DNA from: a virus
Strand: one strand, 5' to 3'
DNA length: 23,230 nucleotides
Virus record (IMG/VR): IMGVR_UViG_3300025130_000009
Span: 1-23,230 of that record
Positions 11,769 to 21,828 of this stretch are shown here, piece by piece (position 1 is the first letter of the stretch; each line of letters opens with the position of its first letter). The translations under genes and the position numbers were made by a program. A model generated the notes under the pieces. That model was not told the origin of the DNA. It worked only from the letters and a program-made list of their open reading frames with translations, and ran no database searches.

Positions 11769-12752
11769 TTAGTTGCTCGTCTTGACCTCGACCAGAACGG
11801 CCGGGCGCAGGCAGAGCGGCAGCGGGTGCGACTGCGTGTGGACGATGTAGCCGCGCCCCATCTCCTCCTCCATGACCTTCGCGTAGTACAACTGGCCCAT
11901 CTGGCCGACGGTCTCGTTGAAGTCCGCCGGAGCCGCGAAGGTCTGGAAGGTCTGCGTGGTGCCGACCGGGAACGCCTGACCGTAGTCAGCGGTGATGAAC
12001 CGCGTCCCGTTCACGCTCGCGCGGTACTCCTCGAAGGTGATCGAGCCGAAGGTGAAGCCCTTCCGCATGTCACCGCCCAGCCTGTTCGCCGCCTCCTGAT
12101 AGTTGGCGTAGGCCTCCTTGACCTTCGCGTGGTTGACGAGCTTGTCGAAGAACTCCTGCGAGACGAGGGCGCGGACGCCGGACGCCATCTCGCCGAGGAG
12201 GTTGTCCTCGATATGGCGGACGACCTCCATGCACTTCCCGCGAACGTCGGTCGTAGACGTCCCGAGGACGAAGTCCACGGACTTCTTGACGATCCCGAAG
12301 TCGGTGAACAGGTCAACGATGGTGTTACCGCCACCGTCCACCACGACGCCCTTGAGGGCGCCCATGCGGAGATATTCGAGGGTCTGGTCGTGCTTCGCGC
12401 GGGCGGTCTCCATCCGCTGATTCAGGTACGACGCGACCGCCGCCTGACCGTCGACGCCGAACTGCCGGAGGCCGACGACGTCGTAGGGGGAGACGCGCTC
12501 GTCGTAGACGAACGACGGGACGGTGAACGTCCGGACCTTGCGCTTGCCGATGGTTCCGACCTGACCCGGGGCGCCGTACTCGGTCGCGGTCAGCAGGGAG
12601 AGCGAGCCGCCCTGCTCCTCGACCATGACGGTGTTGTTGATGACGCCCTTGACCGGGAACAGGCCAAGCTCGTTCAGGCGACCGTAGCGGTTCGGGATGA
12701 CGTTGATGGCCGCGCTTATGTCGGCCGTGGTGAAAATGCCGAAGGGGTTCAT
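11769..12752 (-). CDS. Major capsid protein, lambda gpE family (327 aa)
   Basis: HK97-fold capsid subunit of the lambda gpE type. Recognisable parts are the N-terminus (FTTADISAAINVIPNRYGRLNELGLF), the segment VRTFTVPSFVYDERVSPYDV, the central helix with MRMGALKGVV-type spacing (TLEYLRMGALKGVVVDGGGN), and the C-terminal FEEYRASVNGTRFI...YGQAFPVGT followed by VHTQSHPLPLCLRPAVLVEV. Length is close to that of lambda gpE (341). It follows the decoration protein by 11 bases. A strong ribosome-binding site, GAGGAGG, lies 6 bases before ATG 12752, consistent with high expression. A GC hairpin follows the gene. Confidence 0.95.
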   Translation of the reverse strand: MNPFGIFTTADISAAINVIPNRYGRLNELGLFPVKGVINNTVMVEEQGGSLSLLTATEYGAPGQVGTIGKRKVRTFTVPSFVYDERVSPYDVVGLRQFGVDGQAAVASYLNQRMETARAKHDQTLEYLRMGALKGVVVDGGGNTIVDLFTDFGIVKKSVDFVLGTSTTDVRGKCMEVVRHIEDNLLGEMASGVRALVSQEFFDKLVNHAKVKEAYANYQEAANRLGGDMRKGFTFGSITFEEYRASVNGTRFITADYGQAFPVGTTQTFQTFAAPADFNETVGQMGQLYYAKVMEEEMGRGYIVHTQSHPLPLCLRPAVLVEVKTSN

Positions 12753-12763
12753 GGTCGTCCTCC

Positions 12764-13150
12764 TCAGATCGCGCTACGGCAGAGAATGTTGAGCGCCTTG
12801 AGGTCAACCACTGCGGCGTCCTTCTCGCCTTGGGTGGTGACGCCGGCGCCCCATGCGAGGGCTTCGGTCGCGAGAATGGCGGGACCGCGCACGAGCGCGA
12901 CGCCCTTCTTGTCGCCCCCGCTGGCATCGACGGCGAACAGCAGGATGCCGCTCGCGGTCTGCGAGCCATCGACGGCGTCGTTGTCGTAGGCCTTGACCTT
13001 GCCCGACGCGGTCACGGTCCCGAGGACCGTTCCGGCCAGGAGGTTCTGGCCGGACAGGACCGTGACGGTCTCGCGGCAGAACTGAACCTCGGGCGCCTCC
13101 TCGTACTTGAGGAAGTCACTGAGTTGTGCGGCTTCGGTGTAGGTGGTCAT
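12764..13150 (-). CDS. Head decoration protein, lambda gpD family (128 aa)
   Basis: A 128-residue protein of the lambda gpD type, which binds the threefold sites of the expanded capsid. The pattern FCRETVTVLSGQNLLAGTVLG...GKVKAYDNDAVDGSQTASGIL is typical, as is the position between the prohead protease/scaffold and major capsid genes. Compared with lambda gpD (110 residues) it is slightly longer. ATG at 13150 has GAGGAG about 8 bases upstream. Confidence 0.93.
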   Translation of the reverse strand: MTTYTEAAQLSDFLKYEEAPEVQFCRETVTVLSGQNLLAGTVLGTVTASGKVKAYDNDAVDGSQTASGILLFAVDASGGDKKGVALVRGPAILATEALAWGAGVTTQGEKDAAVVDLKALNILCRSAI

Positions 13151-13162
13151 CCTTCAGTCTCC

Positions 13163-13513
13163 TCAAGCGTGGTAGCGAGCCTTCGCGGCCTTCGTCAGCG
13201 GGCCGTCGGAGGCCGGCTGCGCGGAGGTCGTGTCGGTGGCGGTCTGGTGGAACAGGTGCTCGGGGACCGGGGCCGCCAGCGACTTGACGAGGTTGAGGGT
13301 CGCGGCGAACTGCTCGTCGGTCATACCGAACATGACCTCCTTCTCGGCGTCCGCGAGCTTGAAGGTCGACAGCGCGGCCTCGCGCTCCGCCTTTACCTTC
13401 GCGGCGAACTTCGCCCGGAGATCGGCGATCTCGGTAGTCAGTGCCTCGTTCCGCGCTTTCTCCTCAGCGAGTTCGGCGCGGAGCGAGTCGAGTTCCTGGG
13501 TGTTGTCAGGCAT
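13163..13513 (-). CDS. Nested capsid scaffold protein (116 aa, in-frame internal start)
   Basis: Within the protease gene, ATG 13513 begins MPDNTQELDSLRAEL and is preceded at 6 bases by a perfect AGGAG, a better ribosome-binding site than that of the full gene. The product would be a 116-residue, coiled-coil scaffold protein identical to the protease C-terminus. Lambda encodes its scaffold Nu3 inside the protease gene C in the same way. The internal initiation is inferred from the site and from the domain border lying just before it. Confidence 0.65.
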   Translation of the reverse strand: MPDNTQELDSLRAELAEEKARNEALTTEIADLRAKFAAKVKAEREAALSTFKLADAEKEVMFGMTDEQFAATLNLVKSLAAPVPEHLFHQTATDTTSAQPASDGPLTKAAKARYHA

Positions 13514-14014
13514 CGGTGGCTCCTGTGGTTTGAACAAATGCGCGGAGGTGCGCGGGTCGGCGCCGACGGGGACGAACGAAAGCTCGCGCACGGCGGCGTT
13601 CTCGAAGACGGCCTCGACGTTCAGTTCGCGGCCGTTGAGGTGAACCGGCTTGCCGCCGGTCTTGCGGACGTCGGCGTTGATCCCGACGGACAGTTGAATC
13701 GGGTGGCCCGCCTTCATCAGGGCGGTCACCATCTTGCCGGCCTCGGTGACGGCGTTGAGCTTCCCGACCGCGACGAGCTTCCCGTCCTCGACCGCGAGGT
13801 CGGCAAAGCCAGCCGTCGAGCGGATCGAGTTGTCGTGGTCGATGAGGACCGGGGTCGGGTTCGATAGCTTGATCGTCGCGAGGTCGATGGCGACGTCGCC
13901 GTGGAACCCGTAGTCCGTAATGACGTCGCCGGAGTAGGCGACGGCACGGAACCGGCCGGCGGACTCCGGATCGAGGGAGACGTCGGCGGCGAAGCGAAGG
14001 AGGCTAGTGTCCAT
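13163..14014 (-). CDS. Prohead protease fused to scaffold domain (283 aa)
   Basis: Residues 1-160 resemble a caudoviral prohead protease: RFRAVAYSGDVI..., the H60-D61 pair in PVLIDHDNS, and the LSVG motif with Ser109 followed by ELSFVPVGADP. His60 and Ser109 are the likely catalytic residues by family analogy. Residues 170-230 are a coiled coil (LDSLRAELAEEKARNEALTTE) typical of scaffold domains that fill the prohead. Start choice: ATG 14014 (MDTSLL) or the in-frame ATG 14026; neither has a good ribosome-binding site, so confidence in the start is moderate. The scaffold part also has its own internal start at 13513. Confidence 0.85.
   Translation of the reverse strand: MDTSLLRFAADVSLDPESAGRFRAVAYSGDVITDYGFHGDVAIDLATIKLSNPTPVLIDHDNSIRSTAGFADLAVEDGKLVAVGKLNAVTEAGKMVTALMKAGHPIQLSVGINADVRKTGGKPVHLNGRELNVEAVFENAAVRELSFVPVGADPRTSAHLFKPQEPPMPDNTQELDSLRAELAEEKARNEALTTEIADLRAKFAAKVKAEREAALSTFKLADAEKEVMFGMTDEQFAATLNLVKSLAAPVPEHLFHQTATDTTSAQPASDGPLTKAAKARYHA
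13520..13524 (-). promoter_or_regulatory. Internal ribosome-binding site for the scaffold
   Basis: AGGAG followed by CCACCG and ATG at 13513. Spacing is 6 bases. The bases encode Gln-Glu-Pro-Pro of the protease-scaffold linker. Confidence 0.65.
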
Positions 14015-14052
14015 GCCGCGCAGCATGGGAGCCGCGCGGCCCGGCGTAAGAG

Positions 14053-14064
14053 TGACGCTCGTCA
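14053..14064. other. Short inverted repeat in the gap before the protease gene
   Basis: TGACG-CT-CGTCA, a 12-base near-palindrome in the 56-base gap between the gpG-like and protease genes. It could be an operator half-site pair, but it is short and there is no recognisable promoter around it. Confidence 0.2.
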
Positions 14065-14070
14065 GTAGCC

Positions 14071-14646
14071 CTAGACGGGCGTGAGTCGGATCAACCTCTG
14101 GATCATCTGGACGATCTCGCTCTCCATCGACGGCGGAAGGCCTCGGGAGTCGGGCAGGAACGGCCGGGCCGGGATCTTGATCGTGTAGGGGCCGGTCGTG
14201 TAGCGGACCGTCCGCGCCTTCTTGTGCCGGTCCTTCGCGAACACCGAGCGCCCCGCCGCGTTCTTCCGGAGCCGGACCCACGACGAGTAGGGCGCGCGGT
14301 TGATGGTAGCGCCGAACTCGTGAGTGGGGCCATAGACCCGGTCCGTGCCGATCAGGACGGAGTCGCCCTCGACCTTCGCGTGGAGCGAGTTCCGGAGCGC
14401 GCCGGTATCGAGGAGGATCTTGTGGCCGCCGGACCCCTTACCCTTCCGCCGCTTCGCGACAGTCGAGGACTTGAGCGGTTGCCACGGGGCGCCGTAGGGG
14501 TCATGCGAGGTCTCGAACGTCTTCAGCGACGAGTTCAGCACCAAGTCGCCGATGTCCTTGAGGAACCACCGGATGTCCCCGGATAGGCCGGCGAGGCGCC
14601 CGAGCAGGCGCGACGCCTCGGAATCTACGACCTCGACGGTGAACAT
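14071..14646 (-). CDS. Virion morphogenesis protein, Mu gpG / Phage_tail_S-like (191 aa)
   Basis: The protein contains the features of the Mu gpG-like virion morphogenesis family: an N-terminal helical part (LGRLAGLSGDIRWFLKDIG), FETSHDPYGAPWQPLK, a basic KRRKGKG stretch, ILLDTGALRNSLHAKV, YGPTHEFGATI, and a C-terminal IPARPFLP. Such proteins act at the head-tail junction or in tail completion. There is an insertion of about 30 basic residues (SSWVRLRKNAAGRSVFAKDR) before IPARPFLP. Start ATG 14646 is chosen because AGGAGG lies just upstream; a longer reading to 15006 would overlap two other genes. Confidence 0.9.
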   Translation of the reverse strand: MFTVEVVDSEASRLLGRLAGLSGDIRWFLKDIGDLVLNSSLKTFETSHDPYGAPWQPLKSSTVAKRRKGKGSGGHKILLDTGALRNSLHAKVEGDSVLIGTDRVYGPTHEFGATINRAPYSSWVRLRKNAAGRSVFAKDRHKKARTVRYTTGPYTIKIPARPFLPDSRGLPPSMESEIVQMIQRLIRLTPV

Positions 14647-14654
14647 GGCGCCTC

Positions 14655-14969
14655 CTAGTAGACCACTCCGGGGCCGCCGTCGTCGGTGTCGGCGATCTTC
14701 TGGGCGATCAGCGCGGCGTGAGCGGCCTTGAGTTGGTCGGGGACCGTGAAGAACTTGTAGAGGATGACGGCCAACTCGGCCGGGCTTCGGTACGGACGCC
14801 GGACCGGGTAGAAGGCCGGATAGGGGTCCGAGACGAGACCGCCGTCCTCGATGACCTCCTCGATGGCGTCGATGACGCGAGGGGCCATCGGCCCGGTGAT
14901 TTCTCCGGTCTCCGGGTTCCACTCGATGTAGCCGGCGAGCGGGTTGGCTGGGTCTAGGATGAGTTTCAT
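14655..14969 (-). CDS. Hypothetical phage protein (104 aa)
   Basis: A 104-residue acidic protein (MKLILDPANPLAGYIEWNPETGEITG...). Residues 8-28 look like a beta hairpin with an NPETGEI turn, and the rest is helical (VIDAIEEVIEDG, ELAVILYKFFTVPDQLKAAH). No family recognised. It overlaps the MuF-like gene stop as ATGA, and the gpG-like gene starts 8 bases after its stop, so it belongs to the head module. Confidence 0.75.
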   Translation of the reverse strand: MKLILDPANPLAGYIEWNPETGEITGPMAPRVIDAIEEVIEDGGLVSDPYPAFYPVRRPYRSPAELAVILYKFFTVPDQLKAAHAALIAQKIADTDDGGPGVVY

Positions 14970-16465
14970 GGCGCGAAGTAGAAAAGGAACCCGAGGCAGA
15001 GATCAACCATCTCCGGGTCTTTGTTGAGCATGGCGGTCAGGTCGGAGCGGTGGTGCGGCGAGAGGACGCGCTCCATCGACATCGTGATCATTTCGAGCGG
15101 CTTATCCTGCCAAAGCCCGGACCATGTGTACTCCTTGCCCATGTACGGGTGGATGTAGCCGTCCGGCCGGCACTTCTCGTCGGCGCGGTAGCCCTTGCCG
15201 AAGTTCTGGAGCTTTACGAGAGGCTCGCCGGCCGTCCTCCGCTTGTAGAGCGCCTCGAAGGCGTCATCCATCTCCGGGAGGACGTTCTGGAGGCGGTGGA
15301 AATACTCGTGGATCATGGTCGAGACGCCGTCAGACTTGATGACGGACTCGCCCGGCGCGACGTAGTCGATGCGCCCGATCTTCCGGTAGTGGCCGGAGCC
15401 GGCCGGCTGGTAGTTCATATCGTGCCAGCCGCGCCCGCTCGTCCCGGAGACGTAGGTCCGGCCGCGCGCGTTCGACTTCTCGATCCACGACGTCGGGATT
15501 GTCGACATCGCGCTCTCGACCATCGGCTTGGTCTTCGCCGAGAGTTTGGTCGTCGCCATCTTCCCGCCGAGCTTCCGGGTCGCCGCGAGCCGGTCGAGCA
15601 TCCGGGTCCGGAACTCCTTCCCGAGGTCGGAGCCGATGACGTCCGCCCCATAGACGTCGTTCGGGTCGAGCGCGGCCATCGTGTCGCGGAGGATCTCCTC
15701 GCGCATCGTCCTGCCGGCCGCGATCCACTCGTCCAGGGTTTGCGGTTGCTTGGCGAGCGCCGGCGCCGGCTTGGCGAGCGCCTTCGCTGCGGCGGCAGCG
15801 GCGACCTTGGCCGCTGCCATGCTGGCCTTCCGCTCCTCCATGTTCTTGAGCGCCTGCTCCATCTGTTCGAGCGGGTGATAGCCCCAGCCCGGGTCCGGCT
15901 TCGCCTCGGCCGGGATGTCTTCGAGCGGGGTCGCCCCGCCCATCCCCGCGACCTCGTCGGCCGTCAGGGAGCGGAGCGAGCATCGGCAGTTGTGGCCGAG
16001 CGGCGGCGAGTGGGTCGTCCAGAACGGGTCATCGACCGGGCGGACTACGCCGTTGAGCGCGCGGTGCGACGGCCGCGTCCGCGAGTCGTTGATGGCCGAG
16101 TAGCGGAGATAGGGTCTCTCCTTCTTGGCGAGGTCGAACGCCCGCCAGTGGCCCGCCTGATAGGCGTTCTGGAGGTGGTTGCGGAGGATAAGCTCGACCC
16201 GCCACCGGGGGAGCCCCCAGCCCTTCGCCATCGCCTGCCGCTTGAAGTCCTGAAACGTCCCGCCCTTGGAGAGGATCCGGTCGTTGAGGAAGTCGAGGAC
16301 TGCCTGGATCTGGTCGATCTGCCCCATCCGGGCGACGGAGAACGTCCAGGCGCGCATCCGCGCCGACATCTGGGGCATGTAGTAGGTGTCGGGGAGGACG
16401 ACGCCGCGCTCGGTCGCGGCCTTGATGGCGTCCTCGAACGGGAGCGGGAAACCGATTGAGAGCAT
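14966..16465 (-). CDS. MuF-like minor head protein with C-terminal HEXXH domain (499 aa)
   Basis: Residues about 30-170 form a Mu gpF/SPP1 gp7-like head morphogenesis domain: WRVELILRNHLQNAYQAGHW, then N126-D-S-R-T-R-P-SHRALNG and the closing PPLGHNCRCSL. An Ala-rich linker (215-240) follows. The C-terminal half holds H386-E-Y-F-H390, an HEXXH zinc-protease motif, then YRADE, YMGKEY (441-446) and PLEMITMSME, where Glu458 is a candidate third ligand. MuF proteins are minor capsid components, often fused to enzyme or toxin domains. The protease activity is predicted from the motif only. Its ATG overlaps the preceding small gene as TGATG. Confidence 0.88.
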   Translation of the reverse strand: MLSIGFPLPFEDAIKAATERGVVLPDTYYMPQMSARMRAWTFSVARMGQIDQIQAVLDFLNDRILSKGGTFQDFKRQAMAKGWGLPRWRVELILRNHLQNAYQAGHWRAFDLAKKERPYLRYSAINDSRTRPSHRALNGVVRPVDDPFWTTHSPPLGHNCRCSLRSLTADEVAGMGGATPLEDIPAEAKPDPGWGYHPLEQMEQALKNMEERKASMAAAKVAAAAAAKALAKPAPALAKQPQTLDEWIAAGRTMREEILRDTMAALDPNDVYGADVIGSDLGKEFRTRMLDRLAATRKLGGKMATTKLSAKTKPMVESAMSTIPTSWIEKSNARGRTYVSGTSGRGWHDMNYQPAGSGHYRKIGRIDYVAPGESVIKSDGVSTMIHEYFHRLQNVLPEMDDAFEALYKRRTAGEPLVKLQNFGKGYRADEKCRPDGYIHPYMGKEYTWSGLWQDKPLEMITMSMERVLSPHHRSDLTAMLNKDPEMVDLCLGFLFYFAP

Positions 16466-16650
16466 CAGCGCAGCAGGGCGAGCAGGATCGCCTCATCCTC
16501 CTCGACGTTCCGGCGGCGCCGCTTCCCGCGTACCCCGGGAGCGAGGCCCGGCTGCGACGGGGGAGGCGGCTGGGAGCCGGACTCCTTCCACGCGCCGGCC
16601 TTCCACGCCGACTCCTTCCAGGCTCCGCCCATCCACGCGAGGAGCGCCAT
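16465..16650 (-). CDS. Trp-pentapeptide miniprotein (61 aa)
   Basis: A 61-residue protein with W at 6, 11, 16 and 21 in four tandem A-W-x-x-x pentapeptides (AWMGG AWKES AWKAG AWKES), then a Pro-rich stretch PPPPSQPGLAP, a basic KRRRRN patch and an acidic, hydrophobic C-terminus. I recognise no domain. ATG at 16650 overlaps the nuclease stop as TGATG, and its stop overlaps the MuF ATG as TGATG. Both couplings and the preserved frame argue for a real gene. A structural or nucleic-acid-binding role is possible; nothing proves it. Confidence 0.75.
   Translation of the reverse strand: MALLAWMGGAWKESAWKAGAWKESGSQPPPPSQPGLAPGVRGKRRRRNVEEDEAILLALLR
16579..16638 (-). repeat. Four 15-bp units encoding AWxxx pentapeptides
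   Basis: Codons 5-24 of the miniprotein. On the plus strand the 12-base word CGACTCCTTCCA recurs nearly exactly (GACTCCTTCCA twice), showing that the units arose by DNA duplication. Confidence 0.7.
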
Positions 16651-17476: not shown

Positions 17477-18871
17477 TTACGCGGTGTAGGCGCGGTCCTG
17501 CTCGGCCACCAGCGAGATCGTGATGCCCTTGGCACGGGTGATTGTTCCCGTCGCGACCACCGGCTTCGCCACGCCCTTGTTGCCGGCCACGACCACGATG
17601 GGCGCGTCCTCCGCGTCGGAGCCGGCCCCGCGCTGCACGTTGCCGTCGTAGTCGTAGGTGAAACTGATCTGCCCGGACGTGATGGCCCCGGCAATCGGGC
17701 TGCCGTCCTTGTCATTGACGGTAATCGCCGTCGCAGTGCCGTAGTCGTCGCCAGAGTTGTCGCCAGCATCGTCATTGGCAAAGTACATGCGGTAGTAGCC
17801 CGTCGAGCCACTGGACAGGAACGAGTTAAACACCAGCGAGCCGGCCGCCGAGTAGGGGTAGGTGCGCTGAACACTGTTTTGGTCCAGGAACACGACCCGG
17901 TTGAGGTCGTTGTCCTGAATGTTCTCGATAAACACGCCCTGCGTGGTGTACAGCGTGTCACCGACGAAGTAGCAGAGCTGGCTCTCGGTCTTGCCGTTGA
18001 CCGTGCCGCCGCCCTCGTCGATGTCCGCGTCCTGCCGCAGGAGGTACTGGATCTTGGTGTAGATCTGCTCCAGCGTCGCGTTGTTGCCGTCGATGATCTT
18101 GCGGAATGGGTAGCTGCCCGCGCCGATGGTCTTGCTCTGGTCCAAGCCGTAGTAGGTGATGTCGATCCCCGAGTACGGGGCGCCGGTCATGGCGCCGTCC
18201 GCCGCCGTGATCTTGAGGTCGCCGCCTACCGCGACCGGGAGCGACACCTTGAAGGCGCCAGTGCCGGTGGCGCCAACGTCCGTCAGCGCGGCGTCGTCAA
18301 ACGTGTAGCCCTGCTCGCGGCAGAAGATCTTGAAGTAGGTCCGGTTGTCGAAGTCGCCGTTTGCGGCGTCACCGTAGACCTGAATGCCTTGGTTCGGGCT
18401 GTCGGTGAACGTGAAGTTGGCCGCCGCCCCGCCGCTCGCCTTCTGGTAGTAGAACTGCGCTCCTGCGGGGAACCCGGACGCGAGTGCGACGATGCCGACG
18501 TACTGGCGGTTGAGCGCGCCTGCCGCGCTGTACTCAGACCAGCCGCCGTCGCGGAGCATCTGTCGCGTGGTGTCGTTAGCCGGTTTCCAGCCGTTGTAAC
18601 TACCGCCATCCGTGCCAAATTGAAACTGGCCCGAAAGTGCGTCGATAGCGTACATCCCAAACGGGTATTTGTTGTATGACGCCAACTCCCATAGCTTAAT
18701 CAGCTTTGAGTACAGCGCTTGCAGGGTGACGCCGTCTTTGGCAACCAGGTCGCCATAGGCCGCCAGGGAAATCGTTTTTGCCGACGTATCGATCCACAGA
18801 TTGCCGTCAACACCGAGATTGCCGGACGTTGTAGAAACAACCAACTGATCGGGGTCTGTGCACTTAGCCAT
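17477..18871 (-). CDS. Conserved virion structural protein (464 aa)
   Basis: A 464-residue protein of a type I recall from metagenomic siphophages: [15 protein letters not shown]..., [78 protein letters not shown], the middle part [31 protein letters not shown], and the C-terminal beta domain. It is probably a decoration or fibre-type component on the virion. The name is by resemblance only. Start ATG at 18871 has AAGGA 7 bases upstream, which lies inside the end of the HNH gene (8-base overlap). Confidence 0.78.
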
Positions 18872-19445
18872 TGTGATGTCCTTTTACAGAATTAGATTTG
18901 GTTCTGTTTTCATGCTGCGTGACGATGCGCAAATTCCATGGGACGTGTAGCCCGCTTACCGTCTTTCCTCGTAGCGGGACAATGTGGTCAACCTCATGCG
19001 GAATGCCCGTTTCCTTGGTTGCGCTTGCGGCCCGTGCGTAAATTTCGAGAATCTGCTTATTGAACGCTTTACCAAGCGCCCTGCTCGGAAGCAGCATTTC
19101 TCGTTCCCGCGCTCTTCGCTTGTAAGCATCGGGGTTTGCCCTATACCGGCGTCTATCGGCCTCTCTGATTTCGCCCCGCCGTTCCTCAAGCGCAGCTTTT
19201 ACCCTCTCAGGATTTTGTTGCTTCCATGCCGTCGCACGCTCAACAGCCTTGCGTTTCCGCTCATCGCGCTTTTCTGCGTATGTAGGGTCAGCATCAAGTC
19301 GCTTAAGGTACGCCCTGCTTGCAGCGTTACGACGTGCAGTTACGGCAGGATCGTTTTTCGCCAGGTAACGGCGATTGCGTTCACGACTCATAGCCTTCTG
19401 GCGCTCCCATTCTTCTGGCGTGCAATCTACCTTGCGTTTGCCCAT
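18864..19445 (-). CDS. HNH endonuclease, free-standing homing type (193 aa)
   Basis: The C-terminal 45 residues form an HNH nuclease site: H150-E-V-D-H154-[14 protein letters not shown] with Asn171, and HENRTKSN. The long N-terminal part is basic and helical with repeated R-x-Y-x-A-x-(x)DPxx-type units ([46 protein letters not shown]), typical of HNH homing nucleases that bind DNA. Its DNA is visibly less GC-rich than the head genes. It stands between two virion genes, which are otherwise expected to be adjacent, suggesting insertion. Start ATG 19445, with two bases after the upstream stop. Confidence 0.92.
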
Positions 19446-19447
19446 GG

Positions 19448-21730
19448 TTAGCTCACAAAGTTTCGGTCAGCGACCTGCGCGATAGGCAGAGACGCATTGG
19501 TTGAGCCGAGCAGATAACCTCTTACTGTGTACGGGACGTAGCCCTGCTTGTAGACGCAGACATCAACGTAGTCGCTGGCCGCGTAGCTGTAGCTGTACCC
19601 GTAGGACGTGCTGCCGTGCGCGTCCACGTTGACCCGTTCGGTCGTCGTGCCGGCGGTCAGAATCACGATGTCCGATCCAGACACCAGCCCAGTGAGGGTC
19701 AGCGTCACGCTGTTGTTGACGACCACCGTCGCGCCCGCCGTGCGGATGCTCGGGGTCGAGCCGCCGCCTGAGATGTTGATCGTCACCGACCCGCTGGCGA
19801 TGTTGACGTAGATCGCCTCGTTACCGGTGCTGCCGTTGCTGCTGGCGTAGCTGGTGAACGTGTTACCCGTAAAAGTGATCGTGCTCGCGCTGCCGGACAC
19901 CTCGATGGCGTGGCCGGTGCCGCCACTGGTGAAGGCGCAATTCGAGATATTGTCCATGTCCGCCAGCGTGGCCGACGTGATCTTGCAGTTCTTGAACTTG
20001 CTGCCGGTGATCGTCGCGCTGTTCTGCGTAATGGTCAGACAGTCCGTGAACGCCATCTGGTCGTAAGTGATGGCCCGAAGGTTGAGCTGGCCCGCGTTGA
20101 TGACCTGCGCGCCTGCTGTGTAGACCGTGGCGCTGGTGCTCATGCTGGCGTGCCAGTCCCATTTGAACTTGCTCTTGGACGAGAACACCGCATTGCGAAC
20201 GTCGATGGTGTCCGACGCGCCGGGATAGAAGGTCAGCCCGCACACGTTGTCCACAGAGTTGTAGAACACTTGCTTGTCGGTAACGCTGCGTTGCTGCGGG
20301 AACTCGATCGCCGCATTGGACAGATCGAGGTAGACCGCGTTGGTGCCGCCATCCCCAAGCTGGATCGGCTGGAGCACAAGCATCTGCGTCGCGCCTTGCT
20401 GCAAGACGCTCATCCGCTCCTTACCCTGCGCAGTGACCTTCACAATGTCAGGCACCTTCACCGGATAGCTAGCATTGCCGCCTGCGACTGTCGTCGTGTC
20501 TAACGCCCACAACGAACCAAACTGCATGACCGGCGCGGCGAAGGTGCCAGAGACAGCAAGGCCAAAGGCAGAGACCGACGCCGCATTGAACGTGCCTGTC
20601 GTGTCAATGGCCGTTGCGCCGTCGTTGATGATAAGCGGCAAGTGCTGCGCTGTGTCCCATTTTGTGCCTGAGCCATGCACCGCCCAGAATTTGAAATTGC
20701 CTGCCGACGACGCCATGCCGAATGCGACGCCTTTGCTCGTCGCTTTGCCGATGTTGTCGAGGTTCTGGTAGACCTTCGGCGTTGACGGCTTGGTGTGGAT
20801 CAGGACGTTCTTGCCAGTGACATTAGGCTTGTTGCCGGACGACAGCACGGTACATGCACCAGCGTAGGTGCCGTCTGTCGTCACCCCGGTAAGCTGCCCC
20901 ATCGAGTGATAACTGTTTAGGCCAACGTCTGCCGCCGCGGCTGTCGTGCCGTTGCTAAGGGTGCGGCTGTTCAGCGTCGTGCCGAAGTTGGTGGTCACGG
21001 TAGCAGCCCACGCAGTATTACCGTTGTAGGCGGTCGTGCCGTGTACCGGATCGATGTAGAGCGAGGCATCCGCCACGCAGTACGCCGGGATCACCGACGC
21101 ACCGCCTGACGGGGGAGAAATGCCGACAGTAGCGATGACGCCAGCCGCCGTGCCGGATTTGTTGCCGTACACGTCAGAGCCGACTGCGCCAGCGGTGCGC
21201 TTGAAGCCCCATGACCAACCGTGCGAATGCGCGGACCCGTCCATCGCATCCTCCCAGGTACACGGCCCTTCGAGGACGCCTGGGACGACTGCACCAGACT
21301 CGGAGTTGATGAAGATAACGAGGCTGTTGTTAACCGTCGTGGTCAGCACAGGCATCGCGACACGCGCCGCACTGTTGCTTGCTGTTCGGTAGCCCGTGCC
21401 TGCGCCGCCAGTGCCGTTGAACGGCGTTGAAGTGTTCACGTCGCCAATGGCGATCAGGTGGGCGTTGGCCGTCTCCGCAATCGTGTAGGTGAACGTCGGG
21501 TCACTCTCACTCGCCCCGGCGATCTTGTACAAGACGCCGACGTTGCAAGTGTTCGACACTGAGAAGAGCTGTGTCCAGCCGCTCGATGACCACGCCTGTG
21601 TGGTGCCCGTGTCTGTCGTACAGATCGCCAGCAGCAAATCGTTCTGCTGGTACTGCGGCAGCTTGCACGAGATCGTTGTGGCCGTCGTCGTGCTGTGCAG
21701 GTTGAACTGCCAGTCGCGAATGAACGGCAT
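19448..21730 (-). CDS. Large beta-helix virion/tail-spike-like protein (760 aa)
   Basis: A 760-residue, Ser/Thr/Gly-rich protein. Residues 1-200 form a beta domain with surface-protein character ([20 protein letters not shown]..., [22 protein letters not shown]). The region of about residues 540-690 has short alternating strands ([36 protein letters not shown]) as in parallel beta-helix spike or fibre proteins. Probably a receptor-binding or decorating virion protein; no depolymerase motif was identified. ATG 21730 overlaps the upstream stop as TGATG and has GAGGA 7 bases upstream; an upstream GTG at 21736 would be one base from that site and is less likely. Confidence 0.75.
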
Positions 21731-21828
21731 CAGCACATCCTCACGATGACAGCATCAGGCCACCAAGGAACAGGTGGCAGCGGGGGCGGGGGTAGCACCC
21801 ACAGATACGCAAGCATGACGGCAGTCAC
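21730..21828 (-). CDS. Pro-rich small peptide (32 aa)
   Basis: A 32-residue peptide (VTAVMLAYLWVLPPPPLPPVPWWPD...) with a hydrophobic N-terminus and a Pro/Trp stretch. GTG at 21828 overlaps the preceding stop as GTGA and has GGAGGAGGAAAGG upstream. It is kept in frame and its own stop is coupled to the spike gene. No family recognised; probably membrane-associated or a small structural peptide. Confidence 0.5.
   Translation of the reverse strand: MTAVMLAYLWVLPPPPLPPVPWWPDAVIVRMC

Follow-up and report, generated by a model that had tools for sequence, protein, structure and literature searches.

A conserved in-frame start at the protease-scaffold border of a virus head gene, very probably that of a nested scaffold gene

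Introduction

Scaffold genes nested within a head protease gene are already known from phages Mu and lambda. Head proteases of the assemblin-type fold process themselves and their scaffolds; lambda gpC is a protease of another fold. In herpesviruses, the scaffold protein of UL26.5 is made from its own internal promoter and transcript.

The annotation of the Mu record (AF083977) presents the I/Z pair as an in-frame nested scaffold with its own ribosome-binding site (RBS) and a common stop, in the order F, G, I/Z, capsid, with no D gene in the record and with a late promoter between G and I. The leader of the Mu gene I transcript is roughly 20-25 nt, as inferred from promoter oligonucleotides (PMC4461284). 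For gene 27 of the Mu-like Pseudomonas phage PaMx73, the published description proposes, as a prediction, an internal start at Val177 with a Shine-Dalgarno (SD) sequence 9 nt before it (PMC4378225). The HK97 scaffold is described as part of the capsid protein (PMC10275583), and two-product in-frame genes have also been described for phage endolysins (PMC9430671).

Here we analyse the IMG/VR virus record IMGVR_UViG_3300025130_000009, a stretch of 23,230 bases hereafter called the window. An earlier note on this DNA had proposed that its prohead protease gene carries a second gene, for a free scaffold protein, in the same frame.

Materials and Methods

Relatives of the protease gene were taken from scans of viral and genome contigs, with the best 80 loci of each scan, together with one phage record. 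A protease open reading frame (ORF) was found in 170 of the 177 loci searched (best 80 per scan) and in none of L008 and L013-L018. The 155 distinct ORFs comprised 108 with a scaffold-sized tail, 37 capsid fusions and 10 short or cut ORFs, and the latter two groups were set aside. Lineages (71) are clusters at 70% identity of the 122 complete scaffold-type ORFs, i.e., those with a stop codon, taken with no prior deduplication.

A border start was scored where an in-frame start codon followed an SD of at least 4 nt at a spacing of 4-10. Outer and inner starts were compared in strength over 69 lineages, as two of the 71 are without an outer candidate. The leaderless test covered the 57 clusters with a usable outer ATG (14 of the 71 are without one), of which 36 are SD-less, meaning that the outer start pairs with the anti-SD more weakly than -4.5 kcal/mol, and 21 have an SD. 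The AlphaFold2 (AF2) model of the window protein was built from 84 rows and has a mean pLDDT of 89.1.

Results

The protease gene of the window lies on the minus strand, as do all the genes named here. Its upstream neighbour is a Mu G-type virion morphogenesis gene (14071..14565; PF05069, E 2.4e-19), preceded by a Mu F-type minor head gene (14966..16465; PF04233, E 9.2e-23). Downstream are a head decoration gene of the lambda D type (12764..13150; PF02924, E 1.3e-35) and a major capsid gene of the lambda E type (11769..12752; PF03864, E 3.4e-97). The order F, G, I/Z-type gene, then the PF02924 and PF03864 genes, matches the Mu order F, G, I/Z, capsid. Beside the F gene, a 61-aa ORF (16465-16650) has short GAWKES-like repeats and no Pfam match. 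Two nuclease-like genes are found upstream of the head genes, an SNase gene (PF00565; 16650-16976) and one of the endonuclease VII-like HNH type (phrog_1035; 18864-19445). For the long ORFs at 17477-18871 (464 aa) and 19448-21736 (762 aa), neither PHROG nor Pfam gave a match at E ≤ 0.01, and an Rfam search of 12700..14400 returned nothing.

The full-length gene (13163..14014, minus strand) encodes 283 aa, a prohead protease domain followed by a coiled-coil scaffold tail. Residues 1-167 (13513..14014, minus strand) form the protease part, with the domain itself at about 17-164 according to DSSP and a structure alignment that spans model residues 13-164. The minus strand reads ...TTCAAACCACAGGAGCCACCG ATG(13513)..., and this ATG belongs to the frame of ATG14014 as codon 168 of 283 (Met168); the TGA stop at 13165-13163 is common to both products. 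The putative nested scaffold gene (13163..13513, minus strand) would therefore encode 116 aa in the same frame; besides its conserved start, it is supported by a 44-residue helix modelled near its beginning and by scaffold-family matches in relatives. Its SD, AGGAG (13520..13524, minus strand), lies 6 nt before ATG13513. The coordinates, the AGGAG, the six-base spacer and the in-frame Met168 of the earlier note all agree with the minus-strand sequence, and its statement that the inner site is stronger than that of the full-length gene is true of anti-SD pairing, which is -6.6 kcal/mol at ATG13513 against -1.7 at ATG14014 and -2.1 at ATG14026.

Equal or better pairing is found, in the window, at 21 of the 276 codon positions of the protease gene, and stronger SD-like letters stand before two other in-frame ATGs, 13333 (-12.4) and 13324 (-10.0). 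These are Met 228 and Met 231 on the minus strand, behind AAGGAGGT with spacers of 1 and 10 nt, respectively. A third start at ATG13324 was considered: L003 shares an SD at the matching Met and L006 has none of at least 4 nt there, and for the latter reason we read ATG13324 as incidental. Judged from the window sequence alone, the inner site is unremarkable; the relatives decide the question.

The 283-aa protein matches PHROG 3244 (head maturation protease) with an E value of 1.6e-18. Its AF2 model has a beta-rich domain with the last strand at 157-160, a stretch of low confidence at 161-170 (block mean pLDDT 64) and a 44-residue helix at 172-215 that begins right after Met168, so that the placing of ATG13513 at the domain border, another claim of the earlier note, holds in the model. 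Structure comparison of the model gave fold matches to T4 gp21 (Z 10.5, rmsd 3.2, 124 aligned) and to the VZV protease (Z 10.0, rmsd 2.7, 110 aligned), and its top Foldseek match was the EBV protease (E 4.4e-4). The protease domain, as modelled, is of the herpesvirus-assemblin/T4 gp21-like fold. H60 and S109, the candidate catalytic His and Ser, are invariant in 85 aligned rows. Profile comparison with HK97 gp4 reached a probability of 31% over 102 aligned columns. PF04586 is matched at E ≤ 0.01 by 15 of 85 relatives and, in the Pfam search, not by the window protein itself, whose TIGR01543 score is 19.8 bits, below the cut-off of 59. PF06810 (Phage_scaffold) is matched at E ≤ 0.01 by 6 of the 85, and PF10123 (Mu-like_Pro) by one, at 2.9e-22. 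Comparison with single sequences gave an hhalign probability of 0.4% for Mu gpI and no profile match for lambda gpC (0.3%).

Low modelling confidence at residues 161-170 is what a flexible linker would give, and a protease of this fold, the kind that self-processes and cuts scaffolds, could release the tail by cutting itself near such a linker, the AGGAG and ATG then being incidental. As the sole source of free scaffold we consider proteolysis highly improbable, because it leaves unexplained that the start codon and the SD letters are kept while the residues change. Proteolysis and internal initiation may operate together.

This conservation is seen at several levels of sampling. Among the 108 scaffold-tail ORFs, an SD with a start lies at codons +10..+26 past the domain in 77 and at -6..+10 in 23, and any other 16-codon bin has one in at most 13. 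By lineage, SD and start occur at +2..+25 past the protease domain in 66 of 71 (among the matches listed), against a mean of 37.5 and a maximum of 45 over 100 rounds of synonymous shuffling within each gene. For SDs of at least 5 nt, the 71 lineages give 47 observed and 25.3 shuffled (maximum 34), and for those of at least 6 nt, 30 and 13.5 (maximum 21); clustering at 50% leaves 40 of 44 clusters with a border SD and start, against 22.2 shuffled (maximum 30). An SD precedes 69 of the 110 border start codons and 56 of the 956 others. Five of the 71 clusters miss the border SD and start (L024, L103, L119, L156 and L164), and the first four of these have AGGTG- or AAAGG-like letters ahead of the border ATG.

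Part of this signal comes from the protein: the shuffle null is itself high, which shows that the amino-acid content at the border accounts for some of it, and KE, QE, ED or EE is encoded at the motif in most lineages. One might then suppose that the motif is kept entirely for its protein sequence, in which a Glu-rich linker and the Met after it happen to spell AGGAG-N6-ATG. All 100 shuffles, which already allow for the residues, nevertheless stay below the observed 66, and the site varies in ways that such a linker would not explain. The border start codon of the 66 lineages is ATG in 55, GTG in 10 and TTG in one, i.e., another codon takes the place of ATG in 11. The SD lies in one codon phase in 56 lineages, where it spells KE, QE, ED and EE among others, and in a different phase in 10, where it spells SGD, QGD and EGV among others; in L012, the letters AGGAG run across the codons TCA GGA GAT, the counterpart of CAG GAG in the window. 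Interchange of start codons, together with an SD in two phases over different residues, indicates that nucleotides are kept rather than protein. Codon choice in the VTELE clade (24 proteins, from 17 Acinetobacter records and 7 virus contigs) speaks in the same direction: the border Val is GTG in 24 of 24 (98 of 403 Val elsewhere) and the Glu within the SD is GAG in 24 of 24 (148 of 550 Glu elsewhere), counts that are not independent since the proteins are related, so that naive p-values would be untrustworthy. Protein constraint as the whole explanation is therefore extremely improbable. The earlier note had offered conservation of AGGAG among homologues as a check, and absence of the RBS or of Met168 from relatives as the sign that it was wrong; the relatives do not show that sign, since 66 of 71 lineages have a border SD with a start codon, the latter interchangeable and the former in two codon phases.

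Pairing of the best inner site with the anti-SD beats that of the best outer site in 61 of 69 lineages and is worse in 8, with medians of -7.4 kcal/mol for the inner and -3.3 for the outer site. An excess of scaffold over protease would require a difference in this direction. When a 105-nt RNA around the site is folded, the GGAG of the inner SD is predicted to pair with a downstream GCUCC in the window, L002, L003 and L006; in the window, the GCUCC lies 26-30 nt after the A of ATG13513 and the hairpin region is 13470-13524 (minus strand). The predicted hairpin may weaken initiation, or it may couple the inner start to ribosomes that are translating the full-length protein. In its strict form, coupling would mean that the inner start is used only when elongating ribosomes open the hairpin, and the pairing in these four sequences speaks for it. 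Over 66 lineages, however, SD accessibility averages 0.449 against 0.441 in synonymous shuffles, with 31 of 66 below their shuffle mean, and the rank of accessibility among each sequence's own shuffles is 0.10 for the window and 0.60 for L006. Since the mean is the same as in shuffles, the hairpin characterizes, at the very most, the group to which the window belongs, and strict coupling seems to us unlikely.

The short protein could also come from an internal promoter and transcript of its own, rather than from internal initiation on the long message; the UL26.5 case is a precedent with a protease of the same fold. We found no sigma-70-like promoter in 13100..14200 on either strand by a simple consensus scan, which may miss phage-specific promoters, and regard this origin as very unlikely.

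A candidate promoter lies before the outer start, which in the window is one of the many without an SD. CATGCT (14022..14027, minus strand), 7 nt before ATG14014, is proposed as a -10-like hexamer, and the dyad TGACGAGCGTCA (14053..14064, minus strand), centred at -44.5 from ATG14014, as an activator site; L003 and L006 have TGAC-N4-GTCA at the same place. Among SD-less outer starts, a YAnnnT hexamer begins at -15..-12 in 21 of 36 (17 control bins hold 0-8), and it does so in only 2 of 21 outer starts with an SD. The base preceding the outer ATG is C in 27 of 36 and 6 of 21, respectively. Dyads centred at -43.5 to -45.5 are present in 16 of the 36 SD-less clusters, 13 of them within the bin -48..-44, for which shuffles give 3.0. 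Clusters with an outer SD have a separate dyad peak at -52..-48 (7 of 21, 2.0 expected), so dyads near the protease gene are not peculiar to SD-less starts; the source of this second peak is likely to be the hairpins and T-runs of the Acinetobacter records. In L085, L088, L097 and other Acinetobacter records, a hairpin with a T-run, terminator-like by eye, ends a few bases before the protease start, which makes the junction between G and the protease gene look like a transcription boundary.

Of the 71 clusters, 15 have the dyad and the -10 hexamer at fixed spacing, where shuffles give 0.87 and at most 4; one of the 15, L164, is outside the SD-less set. The same combination stands before 15 of the 68 candidate protease ATGs; within these loci it is also found before 3 of the 469 remaining ORF starts and 71 of the 6530 remaining ATG triplets. 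The positions of the two elements suggest that transcription would start at or next to the protease AUG and thus give a leaderless message. A coding extension upstream of ATG14014 was also considered, as the frame is open and a string 'LTxVTLT...LRG' is apparently conserved in the closest relatives. The same letters fit the dyad, spacer and -10 hexamer at fixed distance, and in L103, L120 and L149 the frame is closed by a stop 7, 7 and 6 codons, respectively, upstream of the ATG that carries the motif; on these two grounds we read the stretch as a promoter.

The Mor dimer of Mu is described as binding a dyad centred at -43.5 (PMC4390567). Of 28 related records, 12 have a Mor-family match (PF08765) at E ≤ 0.001, and in 11 of these the match exceeds the family cut-off. 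One of these records, L181, is a near-identical sister contig that overlaps the end of the window exactly over 1349 bases; its Mor/C-family gene of 130 aa (L181:3258-3650, minus strand) lies beyond the window's end and may encode the regulator that acts at the dyad upstream of the protease. The window itself contains no Mor-family gene. The Mor gene and the dyad with its -10 hexamer occur together in 9 records, the dyad only in 4, Mor only in 3 and neither in 12 (Fisher p 0.02, from related and unequal fragments); for the Mor gene and absence of an outer SD, p is 0.053. As a repeated site, the window dyad has 10 occurrences at ≤1 mismatch where 6.5 are expected, no sign of a regulon, and G007 and G011 each carry their own long dyad just once. 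We give about even chances to a model, drawn from these sequence patterns, in which a Mor/C-family activator at the dyad near -44, a leaderless and weak protease start and an SD-led scaffold start would together set the ratio of the two proteins on one mRNA. A non-exhaustive search of the open-licence PMC literature found no published description of such a leaderless-protease/SD-scaffold pair.

Among the ORFs set aside, L059 and 36 other distinct loci, mainly Planctomycetes/Phycisphaerales contigs among the matches listed, continue for more than 300 aa past the protease domain. These tails are NF045541-like, i.e., the protease is fused to the major capsid protein, and initiation at the border of such fusions would yield capsid protein free of the protease. 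An SD with a start stands at the border in 34 of the 37 distinct proteins (shuffle mean 14.3, maximum 22) and, after clustering, in 5 of 7 clusters, which is not significant (null 2.5, maximum 6).

Discussion

The inner start of the window is in frame, stands at the domain border, is conserved at the nucleotide level and pairs with the anti-SD more strongly than the outer site. We are highly confident that the one reading frame serves two head-assembly proteins, a protease-scaffold and a free scaffold from the inner start, a view that combines the sequence evidence with analogy. The outer start would give the protease-scaffold of 283 aa and AGGAG-N6-ATG13513 the free scaffold of 116 aa. Through the common coiled-coil tail, a small number of protease molecules would be built into the procapsid together with a large number of scaffold molecules, and proteolysis would afterwards remove both the scaffold and the protease itself. 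The synthesis of both products, the excess of scaffold and this role in assembly we infer from Mu and lambda.

If this reading is right, a scaffold nested in the protease gene would be the usual arrangement in a large and for the most part uncultured set of phages whose protease has the assemblin fold. In one isolate record of this family, that of Psychrobacter phage Y8A, the annotation has just one 'hypothetical protein' and lacks a nested gene. Should the leaderless message also prove true, it would explain in concrete and testable terms how one gene can yield little protease and much scaffold.

Among described systems, Mu I/Z is the closest. The window gene shares with it the nested in-frame scaffold with its own RBS, the common stop and the place after F and G; the window differs in having a D gene, in D and E genes that are lambda-like and in the proposed leaderless protease start, where the Mu gene I transcript has a leader. 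PaMx73 gene 27, likened here by its published description, carries the same proposal of a nested start. The fold of the modelled protease domain is held in common with HK97 gp4, herpesvirus assemblin and T4 gp21, although the window protein itself scores below family cut-offs.

The earlier note had likened the locus to lambda C/Nu3. This stands for the nested in-frame scaffold with its common stop and with D and E next to it; it does not stand for the protease, since gpC gave no profile match and the window model matches assemblin-type folds, nor for the order F, G, protease, which is that of Mu. Resemblance to lambda is limited to the D and E genes that follow. The arrangement is thus of the Mu I/Z type with lambda-like D and E genes downstream and, as a nested scaffold of a kind already described in Mu and lambda, the window gene is a well-supported new example that, judging by its sequence, is very probably functional.
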